A stretch of DNA of 64,000 nucleotides from Rhodovastum atsumiense (GTDB lineage Bacteria > Pseudomonadota > Alphaproteobacteria > Acetobacterales > Acetobacteraceae). Position 1 is the stretch's first letter. Each line of letters opens with the position of its first letter. Where the stretch lies: positions 5,811,501 to 5,875,500 of the forward strand of contig NZ_OW485601.1 of the NCBI RefSeq assembly GCF_937425535.1, in the 5' to 3' direction. A model generated the notes under the pieces. It was not told the origin of the DNA. It did not search any database and saw nothing but the letters and a program-made list of their open reading frames with translations. The position numbers were made by a program, and so were the translations under genes. Positions 12,819-18,779 of the stretch are shown in pieces.

Positions 12819-13889
12819 ATGCCGTCCTCAACATCAGGCGATCCGGCGTCACCGATCGCCACGCATGGCGGATCGGTCCTGCCCGCCGTCTGCGTCGATG
12901 CCTACAACGCCGAGCTGCGCAGCGACGAGGGCTTCCTCGGCGACCGCGCCAGCCGCGGCGCGTTCCGCGACACGCTGGAGTCCTGGCGGGAGCGGCTGCG
13001 GACCGCCGGCGAGGATCCCTTCGGCGACACCCCCACCGAAACCATCGGCAAGTCCACGCTCGATCGCGTGCTTGCGGACGGCGACCCCAATGCCGCCGGC
13101 GTCGTGCAGGCCGCCATCGAGGCGTTCGCGCAGGAATTCGCCGGCGTGATCCGCCACCTGCTGCGCACGCCCGACTGGCAGGGCACCCCGCGCATCGTGG
13201 TCGGCGGCGGGCTGCGCGGGGGACGAATCGGCGAGCTGGTGATCGGCCGGACCGCCGTGCTGCTGAAGGGCGAGCGCTGCGAGGTCGACCTGCTGCCGAT
13301 CCGCCACGATCCCGACGAGGCCGGCTTGATCGGCTGCGCGCACCTCGCCCCGACCTGGCTGTTCGCCGGGCATGACAGCATCCTGGGCGTCGATATCGGC
13401 GGCACCAACATCCGCGCCGGGCTGGTGGAGCTGCGGCTGGACCGGGGCCCCGACCTCGCCCGCACCCGGGTGCGCGAGCCGCTGCTGTGGCGGCACCGCA
13501 AGGACCAGCCGGGCCGCGAGCAGGCAGTGGAACGGCTGGCGGAGATGCTGCGGACGCTGATCGAGCGCGCCCACAAGAAGAAGCAGATGCTCGCGCCGTT
13601 CATCGGCATTGGCTGCCCCGGCCTGATCCGGCCGGATGGCAGGATCGCCCGTGGCGGCCAGAACCTTCCCGGCGATTGGGAGGCGGAGGACTTCAACCTG
13701 CCGGCGCGGCTGCGCGAAGCAATCCCGGCGATCGGCAGCCACGAGACGGTGTGCCTGCTGCACAACGATGCCGTGGTGCAGGGGCTGTCGGAGGCGCCCT
13801 TCATGCGCGACGTGCCGCAGTGGGGGGTGCTGACCATCGGCACCGGGCTCGGCAATGCCCGCTTCACCAATCGCCCCCGTCCCCCCTGA
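12819..13889 (+). CDS. ROK-family kinase-like protein with swapped halves
   Basis: 356 aa from ATG 12819 (TTG 12807 also in frame). The nucleotide-binding DIGGTN that opens a normal ROK kinase is at residues 192-197, followed by GIGCPGLI, QNLPGDWE, HNDAVVQG and finally GTGLGNARF, where the protein ends. The segment that should come next in ROK proteins instead lies in front: RIVVGGGLRGGRIGELVIG and DPDEAGLIGCAHLA (residues about 125-177) match the ROK C-terminal IVLGGG and AGLIGAA motifs. Thus all parts of the actin-like fold are present in permuted order. Sugar specificity unknown. I recall similar proteins in other alphaproteobacteria, so it is not an assembly error. Confidence 0.78.
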   Translation: MPSSTSGDPASPIATHGGSVLPAVCVDAYNAELRSDEGFLGDRASRGAFRDTLESWRERLRTAGEDPFGDTPTETIGKSTLDRVLADGDPNAAGVVQAAIEAFAQEFAGVIRHLLRTPDWQGTPRIVVGGGLRGGRIGELVIGRTAVLLKGERCEVDLLPIRHDPDEAGLIGCAHLAPTWLFAGHDSILGVDIGGTNIRAGLVELRLDRGPDLARTRVREPLLWRHRKDQPGREQAVERLAEMLRTLIERAHKKKQMLAPFIGIGCPGLIRPDGRIARGGQNLPGDWEAEDFNLPARLREAIPAIGSHETVCLLHNDAVVQGLSEAPFMRDVPQWGVLTIGTGLGNARFTNRPRPP

Positions 13890-13894
13890 AGGTG

Positions 13895-14950
13895 CTACGG
13901 CCGCGCTGTTGGCACGAAGCGCTGCACCCGCCGGCCGGCATCGACTTCGGTCGTGAACACGTCTCCCCGGCTGTCCACGGCGATGTTGTGCAGCCAGTGG
14001 AACTGCCCCGGCTGCCGCCCCGGCCGGCCGAAGGCGCCGAGCACCGTGCCGTCGGCGCGGCGGAGGATGTGCACCTGCCCGTTGCCGCCATCGGCATCCA
14101 GCAGGAAGCTTTGCGCCGCGTCCGGCCACACGCCCAGGTCCCACACGCTGCCCAGGCCGCGCGTCGCCGGTGCGATCCGCCATTCGGCCACGAAGGTGCC
14201 GTCGTGGCGGAACACCTGCACGCGGTCGTTCTGCCGGTCGCACACATAGACCAGCCCATCGCGGGCGAGCTTCACGCAATGCACGGGATTGCCGAAATTC
14301 GACGAGGGCGCCGCCGCCGGGTCGTAGCTGCGCCGCTGGTCGACGGGACGACGGCCATAGGCGCCCCAATGCCGCCGGTAGGCACCGGTTTCGGCGTCGA
14401 AGACGATGACACGGTGGTTGCCGTAGCCATCGGCGACATAGACCTCGTTGGCCTCGATATCGACCGCGACATCGGCGGGGCGCGCCAGCCGGGTGACGTC
14501 GTTGCTGTCGACCTTGCCGCCGGGATGGCCGATCTGCAGGACGAAGCGCCCGTCAGCGGTGAATTTCAGCACCTGCCCGTCCTGCGGGCCGTTGCCGCCG
14601 AGCCAGACGAAGCCCCGCGGATCGACATGGACGCCGTGCTCGTTGCCGAACCAGTCATAGCGCGGCCCCTGCCCGCGCCATGGCCCGCCCCAGGCCTGCA
14701 GCAGCCTGCCCTCGGGATCGAATTCGATCACCGGCGGCGCGGCCGGCTGGCCGGCCGGGACGCTATGGGGGCGGTGGATGATCCAGACATGGTCGCGCGC
14801 ATCGGTCGCGACCCCCGACACCTCGCCCAGCACCCAGCCATGCGGCAGCGGCTTCGGCCAGGACGGGTCGACCTGCAGATGCGGGGCCTCCGCCGCCCGG
14901 GCGCCGGCACCGAGCAGCAGCACCATGAACAGGATCAGAAAATGTCGCAT
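13895..14950 (-). CDS. Exported NHL-repeat six-bladed beta-propeller protein
   Basis: 351 aa. An N-terminal signal peptide (RHFLILFMVLLLGAGARA) is followed by repeated blades of the NHL type: GVATDARDHVWIIHRP, GVHVDPRGFVWLGGN, DVAVDIEANEVYVADGYGNHRV, CVKLARDGLVYVCDRQNDRV and NIAVDSRGDVFTTEV. Its blades resemble those of peptidylglycine alpha-amidating lyase-like proteins. It lies 20 bp after hyuB on the same strand, so it is probably the last gene of the hydantoinase operon, and it ends only 5 bp from the convergent ROK gene. Function unknown. Confidence 0.8.
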   Translation of the reverse strand: MRHFLILFMVLLLGAGARAAEAPHLQVDPSWPKPLPHGWVLGEVSGVATDARDHVWIIHRPHSVPAGQPAAPPVIEFDPEGRLLQAWGGPWRGQGPRYDWFGNEHGVHVDPRGFVWLGGNGPQDGQVLKFTADGRFVLQIGHPGGKVDSNDVTRLARPADVAVDIEANEVYVADGYGNHRVIVFDAETGAYRRHWGAYGRRPVDQRRSYDPAAAPSSNFGNPVHCVKLARDGLVYVCDRQNDRVQVFRHDGTFVAEWRIAPATRGLGSVWDLGVWPDAAQSFLLDADGGNGQVHILRRADGTVLGAFGRPGRQPGQFHWLHNIAVDSRGDVFTTEVDAGRRVQRFVPTARP

Positions 14951-14970
14951 GGGCCTTCCCAAACGATGCC

Positions 14971-16704
14971 CTACACCCCGCCACGCAGCCGCGCCGTCGC
15001 CGCCGCATCGATCCGCCCCTCGGCATCGACCGCCACGCCGTAGGCATCGCGGGCGACGTCCGGGCTGATCACGCCGTCGCGCAGGTCGCGTTGCACCAAT
15101 GCAGGGTCGCGCGCGCGCGGGTCGCCCATGCCGCCGCCGCCCGGCAGCAGCAGCAGCAGGCGGTCATTGTCCGGAATGACCTGGAAGCCCTTGGGCCGCA
15201 GCCGTGTGCCGGATTTCAGCATCACCACGCCCGGCGCGCCGTCGCCGCCGCCCTCGCGGCCCTTCGCCGGGTGGCCGACGCGATCGAAGACGGCATTCAC
15301 CGCGAATTCCAGCTCGCCCTTGGTGCCGATCTCCATCACCTGCCCGCATCCGCCACGGGTCCGCCCGGGACCGGCGCTGTCGGAGCGCAATTCCTTCTTC
15401 CAGAAGATCACCGGCGCCACGTTCTCGGTCGCCTCCACCGGCATGGTCCGCACGCCCGAGGGGAAGGCGGTGCCGTCCAGCCCGTCCGCCGTGGGCCGCG
15501 CGCCAGTGCCGCCGGAATTGAAGGTGATGACCTCGAAATCGGCCACCACCCGACGGTTGGCGCGCGCCTGGCCGGAAACCTGCGCGCCGCCCCGCAGCGG
15601 CGGGTTCCACAGGCAGGAACTGCCCTCGGCGGCGACGCGATCCGGCACCACCTGGTGCAGGCAGCCCATCATCAGGTCGGGCAGCAACTGCCCGATCACG
15701 TGCCGCACCGCCACCGGCGAGGGCCGCGGTGCGTTCAGGATGCAGCCGTCCGGGATCTTCATGCGGAAGGGCGCCAGCGAGGCCCAGTTGTTCGGCACTT
15801 CGGGCGCCACCACCACCTTGATGCCGAAGCAGGCATAGGCCCGGCAATAGGCGGGGGGCACGTTGATGCCACGCTGCGACAGGCCGGAAGTGCCGGCGAA
15901 ATCCACCTCGATCGCGTCGGGCAGGATGGTCATGGCGGCGCGCAGCGTCACCGGTTCCTCGTAGCCGTCGCTGCAGATCGCGGCGGCGAAGGTGCCGTGG
16001 CCCAGCCTGGCGATCTCGGCCAGCGTGGCCCGCCGGCTGCTGTCGAAGATGAATTCCGCCAGCGCGTCGAGATCCTCGAGCGCGAACTCGTCCATCATCC
16101 CCGCGAGCCGCCGCGCCCCGGCGTCGTTGCAGGCGCACAGCGAATAGATGTCGCCTTCCAGCTCCACCGGCAGCCGGGATCCCGCGCGGACGAAATCGAA
16201 GAAGGTCTCGTTCGGCCGGCCCTGGTCAAAGCATTTGACGATCGGGATGTACAGCCCTTCCTCGAAGACGCTGCGCCCGTCCGGCCCCATGCCGAGCCCG
16301 CCGACATCGATGACATGGGCGGTGTTGGCGAACAGCCCGACCATGCGGCCGCGATGGAAGGCCGGCGACACCACCGTCAGGTCGTGCAGGTGCCCGGTTC
16401 CGAGCCACGGATCGTTGGTGATGTAGTGATCGCCCGGACGCATGGTCGCGGCCGGGAACTTGGCCAGGAAATGCCCGACGCTCTCCATCATCGAGTTGAC
16501 GTGGCCGGGCGTGCCGGTCACCGCCTGCGCCAGCATCCGTCCCTGCAGATCGAAGATGCCGGCGGAGAGATCCCCCGCCTCGCGCACGGTGGTGGAGAAG
16601 GCGGTGCGGATCATGGTCTGCGCCTGCTCCTCGACCACGGCGATCAGGCGGTTCCACATCACCTGCCGGCGGATGCCGGCCAGAGCGCCATCCAGCGGTG
16701 CCAT
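14971..16704 (-). CDS. hyuB: Hydantoinase/oxoprolinase subunit B
   Basis: 577 aa, normal for HyuB/5-oxoprolinase beta. Family segments seen: RTAFSTTVREAGDLSAGIFD, HVNSMMESV, GDHYITNDPWLGTGHLHDLTVVSP, DFAGTSGLSQRGINVP and VFDRVGHPAKGREGG near the C-terminus. With HyuA it hydrolyses N-methylhydantoins, 5-oxoproline or related amide rings with ATP; substrate cannot be fixed. Its ATG shares a base with the hyuA stop (TGATG), so the two are translationally coupled. Confidence 0.9.
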   Translation of the reverse strand: MAPLDGALAGIRRQVMWNRLIAVVEEQAQTMIRTAFSTTVREAGDLSAGIFDLQGRMLAQAVTGTPGHVNSMMESVGHFLAKFPAATMRPGDHYITNDPWLGTGHLHDLTVVSPAFHRGRMVGLFANTAHVIDVGGLGMGPDGRSVFEEGLYIPIVKCFDQGRPNETFFDFVRAGSRLPVELEGDIYSLCACNDAGARRLAGMMDEFALEDLDALAEFIFDSSRRATLAEIARLGHGTFAAAICSDGYEEPVTLRAAMTILPDAIEVDFAGTSGLSQRGINVPPAYCRAYACFGIKVVVAPEVPNNWASLAPFRMKIPDGCILNAPRPSPVAVRHVIGQLLPDLMMGCLHQVVPDRVAAEGSSCLWNPPLRGGAQVSGQARANRRVVADFEVITFNSGGTGARPTADGLDGTAFPSGVRTMPVEATENVAPVIFWKKELRSDSAGPGRTRGGCGQVMEIGTKGELEFAVNAVFDRVGHPAKGREGGGDGAPGVVMLKSGTRLRPKGFQVIPDNDRLLLLLPGGGGMGDPRARDPALVQRDLRDGVISPDVARDAYGVAVDAEGRIDAAATARLRGGV

Positions 16705-18779
16705 CAGCCTTCTCCCCGCACCAGTTCGATATAGCCGAGACCGTTCACCCGTGCCGACCAGCCCGGCCCGACCAGCGTCGAGGTCTCGTCCTCCGCGATG
16801 ATCGCCGGCCCTTGCAGCGTGGCGCCGGGCGCGAGCCGGGCCCGGTCGTGCACCGCCCATTGGCTGACCTCGCCGCTCGCGGTGTCGCGCACTGCCTGCC
16901 AGCCAACCGACGCCGCCGGGGCGGCTTCTTCCGGCGCGACGGGCGCGGCCGCCGGCGCGGGAATGGTCGCGACCAGCACGGCATAGCTCATGATCTCGAC
17001 ATCGGATCCGGGCACCGGCCGGTCGTAGAAGCGGGCATATTCGGCGTCGTAGGCGGCACGGATCGCCGGCACGTCCCCGGCCGTCAGGCTGCGCGCGGGC
17101 AAGGGCACCGGGATTTCGTGGCCCTGGCCGACATAGCGCATATAGGCCAGCCGGTGCTGGCGCGTCGGCGCGCCGAAGCTGCCCTCGGCCACCACCGCCT
17201 CGGCCTCGGCCGCTATGTCGTCGAACAGGGCGTTGACCGCGACGATGTCGAAGCTGGCCAGACGCTGGTACAGGCTGCGCACCACCTCGTAGCCGACCGG
17301 CGCCACCAGGAAGCCGATGGCGCTGCCCACGCCCGCGCCGGTGGGCACCAGCACGCGGTCGATGCCGACCCGCTCGGCCACGCGATAGCCATGCACCGGC
17401 CCGCCGCCGCCGAAGGCGATCAGCGTGCGCCCGTCATAGGTCTTGCCGGATTCGATCGCGTGGACCCGCGCGGCGTTGGCCATGTTCTCGTCGACCATCT
17501 CGATCACACCGAGCGCCGCCAGCGCCGGCGGCAAGCCGAGCTTTTCGCCGACCTCGGCGGTCAGGGCCGCTTCCGCCGCCGCCACATCCAGCGGCAGCCG
17601 CCCGCCGGCGAAGCGCGCCGGATCGTAGCGGCCGAGCACCAGGTTGGCATCGGTCACCGCCGGCCTGCTGCCGCCGCGCCCGTAGCTGGCCGGTCCCGGA
17701 TCGGCGCCCGCGCTCTCCGGCCCGACCGCGATGCGGCCCATCGCGTCGACATGCGCCAGCGAACCGCCGCCCGCGCCGATCTCCACCATCTCGATCACCG
17801 GGATGCGCAGAGGCAGGCCGGAACCCCGCCGGAAACGTCCGACGCGCGCCACCTCGAAGGTCCGCGCCGTCTGCGGCTGGCCGTCATCGATCAGGCAGAC
17901 CTTCGCCGTGGTGCCGCCCATGTCGAAGGACAGGACGTTATCCAGCCCGCATTGCCGCGCGACATGGGCAGCGAACAGCGCGCCGCCGGCCGGACCGCTC
18001 TCGACCAGCCGGATCGGGAAGCGGCAGGCGGTGGCGATGGTGGTCAGCCCGCCGCCCGAGAGCATCAGGAAGATCGGCGCCACCAGCCCCATCCCGCGCA
18101 GTTCCTGCTCCAGCCGGGTCAGGTAGCTGGCCATCAGCGGTTGCACATAGGCATTGGCGGCGGTGGTGGAGAAACGCTCCCATTCGCGCATCTCCGGGCT
18201 GACCTCGCAGGACAGCGAGACCGGCACGTCCGGCATCGCGTCCGCCAGGATCTCGCGCACGCGGCGCTCATGCGCAGGATTGACGAAGGCATGCAGGAAA
18301 CCGACCGCGATGCTTTCCACGCCTTCCCGGCGCAGGACCGGCACCAGCGCGCGCACCGCGTCCTCGTCGAGCGGCAGCAGCACGTTGCCTTCGTTGTCCA
18401 GCCGCTCCGGCACCGGCAGGCGCAGGTGCCGCGGCACCAGCGGCTGCGGCAGCACGATGTTGAGGTCGTACTGGTCGTAACGACTCTCGTTGCCGAGCGC
18501 GAGCACGTCACGGAAGCCTTCGGTGGTCAGCAGCGCGGTGCGGGCGCCCTTGCGTTCGATGATGGCGTTGGTGGCCAGCGTGGTGCCGTGGACCAGCAGG
18601 GCGATGTCGGCGGCGGTGAGTCCGGCGGTCGCCAGCACCTGCCGCACCCCCGCCAGCACGCCCTGTTCAGGCGCAGCAGGGGTGGTCAGGACCTTTGCGG
18701 TGGTGCGGCGCCCGTCATGGTCCAGGGCGAGATCAGTGAAGGTGCCGCCGATATCGACGGCAAGCCGGGCTGAGGGCAT
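16704..18779 (-). CDS. hyuA: Hydantoinase/oxoprolinase subunit A (ATP-dependent)
   Basis: 691 aa. N-terminal ASKHA phosphate-binding loop RLAVDIGGTFTDLAL (residues 5-19), then LLVHGTTLATNAIIERKGARTALLTTEGFRD, YVQPLMASYL, SFDMGGTTAKVCLIDDG and ALIAFGGGGPVHGYRVAERVGIDRVLVP, in family order. It binds ATP and forms the ring-opening amidohydrolase with HyuB. The gene follows oxyR on the same strand after a 70-bp gap containing a hairpin, so it probably has its own promoter. Confidence 0.92.
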   Translation of the reverse strand: MPSARLAVDIGGTFTDLALDHDGRRTTAKVLTTPAAPEQGVLAGVRQVLATAGLTAADIALLVHGTTLATNAIIERKGARTALLTTEGFRDVLALGNESRYDQYDLNIVLPQPLVPRHLRLPVPERLDNEGNVLLPLDEDAVRALVPVLRREGVESIAVGFLHAFVNPAHERRVREILADAMPDVPVSLSCEVSPEMREWERFSTTAANAYVQPLMASYLTRLEQELRGMGLVAPIFLMLSGGGLTTIATACRFPIRLVESGPAGGALFAAHVARQCGLDNVLSFDMGGTTAKVCLIDDGQPQTARTFEVARVGRFRRGSGLPLRIPVIEMVEIGAGGGSLAHVDAMGRIAVGPESAGADPGPASYGRGGSRPAVTDANLVLGRYDPARFAGGRLPLDVAAAEAALTAEVGEKLGLPPALAALGVIEMVDENMANAARVHAIESGKTYDGRTLIAFGGGGPVHGYRVAERVGIDRVLVPTGAGVGSAIGFLVAPVGYEVVRSLYQRLASFDIVAVNALFDDIAAEAEAVVAEGSFGAPTRQHRLAYMRYVGQGHEIPVPLPARSLTAGDVPAIRAAYDAEYARFYDRPVPGSDVEIMSYAVLVATIPAPAAAPVAPEEAAPAASVGWQAVRDTASGEVSQWAVHDRARLAPGATLQGPAIIAEDETSTLVGPGWSARVNGLGYIELVRGEG

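Follow-up and report, generated by a model that had tools for sequence, protein, structure and literature searches.

Does a gene in this stretch encode a sugar kinase of the ROK family whose two halves have changed places? The window, which is the whole 64,000-nucleotide stretch of Rhodovastum atsumiense DNA that was analysed, carries such a candidate at 12819-13889 on the plus strand; with its ATG start, it translates into a protein of 356 amino acids, and the start codon lies at about the same position in most relatives. A preliminary description made from the sequence had placed the GGG and AGLIG motifs ahead of DIGGTN, with GTGLGNARF near the chain end. The translation of 12819-13889 had this order: GGG at residues 129-131, DEAGLIG at 166-172, DIGGTN at 192-197, HNDA at 315-318 and GTGLGNARF at 341-349, followed by 7 residues and the stop codon. 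The features are listed below, with conservation counted over 47 distinct family proteins.

12819..13889, plus strand: whole gene, putative circularly permuted ROK-like kinase of 356 amino acids (ATG start, motifs, ROK HMM)
12864..12965, plus strand: residues 16-49, conserved N terminus specific to the family, with the pattern H16-G...L21-P and G38-F-x-G41-D42-R-A-S...F49 (H16 in 46/47, G41 and D42 in 47/47)
13038..13355, plus strand: residues 74-179, corresponding to the last third of ROK proteins (hhalign, HMMER)
13203..13211, plus strand: GGG, residues 129-131 (47/47), which we take to be the glycines of the adenosine motif
13317..13334, plus strand: EAGLIG, residues 167-172, start of the equivalent of the last ROK helix (profile alignments; D166, L170 and G172 in 47/47)
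13356..13379, plus strand: residues 180-187, linker between the former C and N termini (rotation optimum, cuts 180-188)
13380..13853, plus strand: residues 188-345, corresponding to the first half of ROK proteins (HMMER to ROK 3-136, i-Evalue 4.2e-11)
13392..13409, plus strand: DIGGTN, residues 192-197, phosphate-1 motif (D192, G194 and G195 in 47/47; position 196 is T in 34 and S in 13)
13761..13769, plus strand: HND, residues 315-317 (each residue in 47/47)
13839..13853, plus strand: GTGLG, residues 341-345, phosphate-2 motif, with the chain end 11 residues on (47/47)

The probable next gene downstream was on the opposite strand. An NHL-repeat-like ORF was seen at 13895-14962, adjoining 14971-18779 on the minus strand, where inspection by eye showed two large ORFs that resemble genes for hydantoinase B and A. 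Four further ROK matches and one PF02685 glucokinase were found in the source genome (7.42 Mb), indicating that the permuted protein is not its sole candidate sugar kinase.

Correspondence of the two halves with ROK proteins

The Pfam ROK profile (PF00480) matched only the second half of the protein, aligning residues 189-348 with profile positions 2-138 of 294. The score of 36.2 bits passed the gathering threshold of 22.9 bits by way of the N-terminal half of the model only, and 22 of 24 members were matched at E 0.1 or better. An HMM was built from 25 ordinary ROK proteins, taken from 41 loci that did not overlap with those of the permuted family. Eight of the 25 (L048-L055) had been chosen for their likeness to the C half of the permuted protein, so that the C-half score was favoured and the N-half score was not. 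With this HMM, HMMER aligned ROK positions 212-298 with residues 85-178 (i-Evalue 2.9e-5) and ROK positions 3-136 with residues 188-345 (i-Evalue 4.2e-11). The two domains were found in swapped order in 46 of the 47 members at a domain i-Evalue below 1, and both were below 0.01 in 38; the remaining member (L044) gave no match with the ROK HMM.

A family alignment comprised 36 proteins at first and later 47. In profile-profile comparison, residues 74-179 of the N half aligned onto positions 210-308 of the 317-position ROK template with an hhalign score of 64.5, when the highest score among 200 column-shuffled N halves was 27.1. Reversed columns scored 18.4, the N half against the ROK N half 15.3, and the C half against the ROK C half 17.3. 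The C half aligned onto ROK 12-147 and the rotated family onto ROK 12-309. The family alignment scored 86.6 in natural order and 130.7 when rotated at residue 186, and a scan of 30 cut points peaked at cuts 180-188 with a score of about 130. The N half scored 24.2 against eight ROK proteins of one family only, which is within the full-set shuffle range (maximum 27.1), and 47.6 against the other 17.

Residues 1-73 had no significant ROK match of their own, so that position alone implies that they correspond to the hairpin and zinc region of ROK proteins; in the rotated alignment, residues 16-49 would take the place of the ROK beta-hairpin, ExGH and zinc region. Rotating single sequences hardly altered the PF00480 score in Pfam, and the N half was not recovered by Pfam or PDB phmmer searches with such sequences. 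One member (L006) matched no Pfam family in natural or rotated order. Among PDB sequences, the family profile in natural order gave no significant swapped match and a rotated 8-sequence profile gave nothing at E 0.01; the top PDB match of the natural-order profile was discounted because it was partly aligned to an apparent expression tag (HHHHHSSGLVPR). An AlphaFold2 prediction from two sequences (pLDDT 38.1, pTM 0.33) was uninformative as a structure model.

Taken with the order and chain ends common to the family, the swapped two-domain matches, the rotation scan and the shuffles support the circular permutation proposed in the preliminary description. Sequence comparison thus supports homology of both halves to complementary ROK parts in exchanged order, which is what marks a circular permutant. 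The first 180 residues, whose identity as an unrelated domain would have told against the proposal, were not wholly so, as 74-179 correspond to the last third of ROK proteins.

Distribution and architecture of the family

One architecture was common to the 47 distinct proteins, with lengths of 348-385 amino acids. GTGLGNA was present in 46 of them and the chain ended 5-38 residues after it (46 tails measured), showing that no second ROK half follows. These lengths, and the finding that the sole PF00480 match in the window was the gene at 12819-13889, also answer the concern that a second ROK C-terminal half might lie downstream. A lysine-rich tail, extending 30-38 residues past GTGLGNA, was seen in six members (L008, L030, L031, L032, L033 and L034).

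Relatives were sought in three overlapping genome draws. Eighteen of 385 genomes matched in the class draw, 16 with a nearly full-length relative, two of these with in-frame TAG stops, and 2 with a partial one only. The members with in-frame TAG stops (L017 and L021, from draft genomes) are either decayed genes or sequencing errors. The phylum draw (398 genomes) gave 57 matches, of which 22 were full length when read by eye (17 in the class, including G000, and 5 outside); the other 35 matched the C part only (widest 113-351, mostly about 187-351), as expected of ordinary ROK proteins. Twelve of 200 genomes matched in the order draw, 9 of them nearly full-length in one piece (including G000).

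Relatives were also found by tblastn in 207 plasmid records, 204 of them at a coverage of at least 80%, mostly from Rhizobium and Sinorhizobium. Roseateles was the single exception among the genera of these records; the other 206 belonged to Alphaproteobacteria by genus name, a class that we assumed for most of these genera. A scan of genome contigs returned one locus from a metagenome-assembled genome (L006), labelled Gammaproteobacteria, with 63% identity; the scan used exact short peptides and therefore says little on other phyla. The pSymB replicon of S. meliloti 1021 carried a family gene (L141, 52% identity) in an unannotated stretch, and no relatives were found in viral contigs and phages. 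Among the 60 plasmid matches listed, the annotation was 'ROK family protein', 'hypothetical protein', 'glucokinase' once, or none. The Pfam and NCBIfam models that were tried see half of the protein, and it is thus filed as an ordinary ROK protein.

The order of the halves was the same in 46 of the 47 members, in agreement with the earlier suggestion that similar proteins exist elsewhere and that the gene is probably no local accident. The literature searched likewise contained no account of a permuted ROK protein, in line with the suggestion that the family is probably undescribed. Since the same swapped design recurs across related bacterial proteins, the rearrangement is a natural one that has been stably kept, and an error is not the explanation.

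Two other accounts of the swapped order were weighed against these data. The N-terminal 180 residues could form a helper domain with no relation to ROK, leaving the C part as half a ROK protein that needs a partner chain, an account that would fit the recognition of the C part only by Pfam and the lack of a ROK match in residues 1-73. We consider it very unlikely, since both HMMER and hhalign (the latter compared with shuffles) match residues 74-179 with the last third of ROK proteins, the halves complement each other within one ROK fold, and the length range of the 47 proteins (348-385 amino acids) is narrow. Still harder to credit is a mis-called or broken pair of tandem ROK genes, in which a ROK C end would have been fused with the N end of the following gene. 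Genome G050, from the same class, does carry tandem ROK genes, and the permuted protein aligns across a junction there through its residues 123-277. This pair, which is without the zinc motif, lies on the minus strand (L137, G050:C99; also L023), and its second gene is split over two reading frames (L140 and L139). However, the swapped order is common to 46 of the 47 distinct proteins by HMM, with the GTGLGNA end in 46. PF00480 had a single match in the window, to which the ROK HMM added two weak ones (E 0.002 and 0.005). Across 44 neighbourhoods, a single other ROK match at E 1e-4 was centred more than 700 bases off (L111), and this long frame at L111 was taken as the permuted gene's own and not as a separate ROK gene. 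A miscall of tandem genes at 12819-13889 is refuted by the conservation of the family. The alignment across the G050 junction indicates that a duplication route to the permuted protein exists, and the pair illustrates this route without showing ancestry. The tandem ROK genes (L023/L137) were also tried as the nearest unpermuted relative, on the basis of an N-terminal likeness seen by eye, and were rejected because their profile scores were not above those of other ROK proteins.

Active-site motifs, probable fold and expression

Residues G41, D42, R57, W120, the GGG motif, D166, D192, N282, W287, H315, N316, D317, Q321 and T342 were invariant in all 47 proteins. Near-invariant positions (at least 95% of the 47) numbered 21 in residues 1-186 and 48 in residues 187-356, so that conservation is lower in the N half. 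ROK signatures, according to passages in PMC5458393, comprise DxGxT, a catalytic Asp, ExGH and a cysteine-rich zinc motif. The DxGxT nucleotide motif was kept, with Thr or Ser at position 196, and so was the catalytic Asp of the active-site loop (N316-D317, 47/47). The ExGH sugar motif was absent from the 47 proteins, in which the only candidate His was H16 (46/47) and Glu stood at position 13 in 1/47. The zinc motif CxCGxxGCx(E/D) was likewise absent, the pattern C.CG..G[CH] occurring in 0/47. The earlier statement that nothing essential is missing was correct for the ATP-site and catalytic motifs and too strong for the ROK ExGH and zinc motifs. The absence of the latter two suggests that the sugar pocket is probably remodelled, and makes catalysis on a hexose less than certain.

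PMC10031466 describes D6 of PsNagK as the metal residue, with phosphate held by T10 and T132 and with D105 as base. By motif, these residues would correspond to D192, T196 (Ser in 13/47), T342 and D317. D192 is accordingly a predicted metal-binding Asp and D317 a predicted catalytic base, and T342, the Thr of the phosphate-2 motif, may hold phosphate by analogy with PsNagK T132. The sugar residues of the GNE kinase are given in the relevant passages of PMC2742894 as N516, D517, E566, H569 and E588. E566, H569 and E588 have no certain equivalent in the permuted family; that D42 takes the place of E588 is a guess based on the alignment after rotation. The most likely role of the protein is that of a sugar 6-kinase, presumably acting on a hexose.

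We propose an actin-type fold in which the old ROK N and C termini, both in the small domain, would be joined by the short linker (residues 180-187), and the chain would be opened instead in the large domain, just past the GTGxG strand, placing the new ends there. Published ROK structures have the last helix in the N lobe (parts of PMC2742894 and PMC10031466), and the N domain of FnNanK is described in PMC5458393, as far as excerpted, as 1-118 plus 272-291, indicating that joining of the old termini through residues 180-187 is feasible. The usual two lobes would hold ATP-Mg between them; D317 would deprotonate the sugar 6-OH and D192 would hold the metal. A conserved new N-terminal segment (H16, F39-x-G41-D42) may replace the ExGH motif and zinc site in a remodelled sugar pocket, and a hexose would most likely be phosphorylated.

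Some lineages probably express the gene in the general stress response. The pattern GGAAC-N16/17-CGTT, which we take to be the EcfG-type general-stress promoter consensus, was searched within 150 bp upstream of 38 loci. Exact motifs were found in 11 of the 38, at -53 to -78 from the start codon (L010, L011, L014, L015, L026, L027, L028, L038, L041, L042 and L085). At one mismatch or fewer, 25 of the 38 loci carried the motif and 0.9 was expected by shuffling; the loci are related, so that the counts are not independent, and the 25 include a weak site of the gene at 12819-13889 at -35 and two sites at -119. The gene at 12819-13889 had no exact site, and its one-mismatch site at -35 is nearer to the start than the range of -53 to -78. 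The motif occurred upstream of 0/25 ordinary ROK genes at one mismatch or fewer, and in random 150-mers at 4/2413 (exact) and 57/2413 (one mismatch or fewer). With a looser first pattern, 13 of 36 loci had a site within 430 bases; 0.8 were expected, and the reverse strand gave 2. In a further scan of 11 loci, one had an exact site (L085, counted already), seven had a site with one mismatch and three had no site. Nothing usable was found in the literature on a link of the general stress regulon with ROK proteins or glucokinase.

Of the 40 gene clusters listed among the neighbours, none spans the family except the permuted gene itself; among them, a block of several genes recurred in six loci and an ABC-transporter-like ORF was present in seven, at a median distance of 5.5 kb. 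The trehalose phosphatase gene otsB was a neighbour in Rhizobium and Roseateles (adjacent in 3 of 44 neighbourhoods), and an NAGGN osmoprotectant peptidase gene was a neighbour in S. meliloti (1 of 44). A ferritin-like gene lay within about half a kilobase at L026 and L128, with a fragment at L123 and farther copies at L113 and L119. A sugar phosphate made at times of stress could supply osmolyte pathways such as trehalose. More tentatively, and with less than even confidence, we suggest that the permutation gave rise to a zinc-free clade, in which the N terminus (HG...LP, GFxGDRAS) forms the sugar pocket for a new osmolyte-linked substrate under general stress.

A permuted ROK derivative that is no longer a kinase would account for the lost ExGH motif and replaced sugar region, and for the absence of a metabolic operon common to the family among the clusters listed. 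ROK repressors are non-enzymatic, and the protein could similarly act as a sugar or ATP sensor or as a scaffold. However, both Asp residues, catalytic and metal-binding, were invariant in 47/47, as was the Thr of phosphate-2, and a non-enzyme would not need them. Pfam revealed no clear DNA-binding domain, the only candidate being a match to a TetR C-terminal domain in 1 of 24 members (E 0.049). Loss of kinase activity is thus unlikely in our view, although less so than the helper-domain and tandem-gene accounts. The protein very probably belongs to a family of actin-fold ROK kinases in which a natural circular permutation has been stably kept, with a remodelled sugar pocket and a likely activity on hexose.

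Comparison with known systems

The literature searched, which covered few subscription papers, contained no described circular permutant from the ROK branch within the actin/hexokinase/Hsp70 fold; permutation within kinase fold groups is treated in general only in passages of PMC1079889. With intact catalytic motifs in a stable family, the protein would allow a direct test of whether lobe closure depends on chain order, and would also allow one to ask how permutation changed the sugar site.

The permuted family resembles the ROK kinases (PF00480; glucokinase, NagK, NanK and fructokinase) in DxGGT, the catalytic Asp in ND, GTGxG, GGG and AGLIG, and both of its halves match them by profile. It differs in the reversed order of the halves, the absence of ExGH and CxCGxxGCx(E/D), and the presence of its own N-terminal HG...LP / GFxGDRAS segment. 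The best single-sequence PDB match was an inorganic polyphosphate/ATP-glucomannokinase (PDB 1woq, E 2.6e-4, C half), and the best partial NCBIfam match was polyphosphate-glucose phosphotransferase (NF045942, C half), whose 27.8 bits did not reach the polyphosphate/ATP glucokinase equivalog cut-off of 250; both of these, unlike the permuted family, have the conventional order of halves. ADP-dependent glucokinase and 2-dehydro-3-deoxygluconokinase have a ribokinase-like fold. A segment swap between these two related sugar kinases is reported in a passage of PMC2213659; the swap is like that of the permuted ROK proteins, but the enzymes are not ROK or actin-like. The zinc-free ROK kinase NanK of F. 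nucleatum (PMC5458393) offers a precedent for loss of the zinc motif, although, unlike the permuted family, it keeps ExGH and the conventional order.
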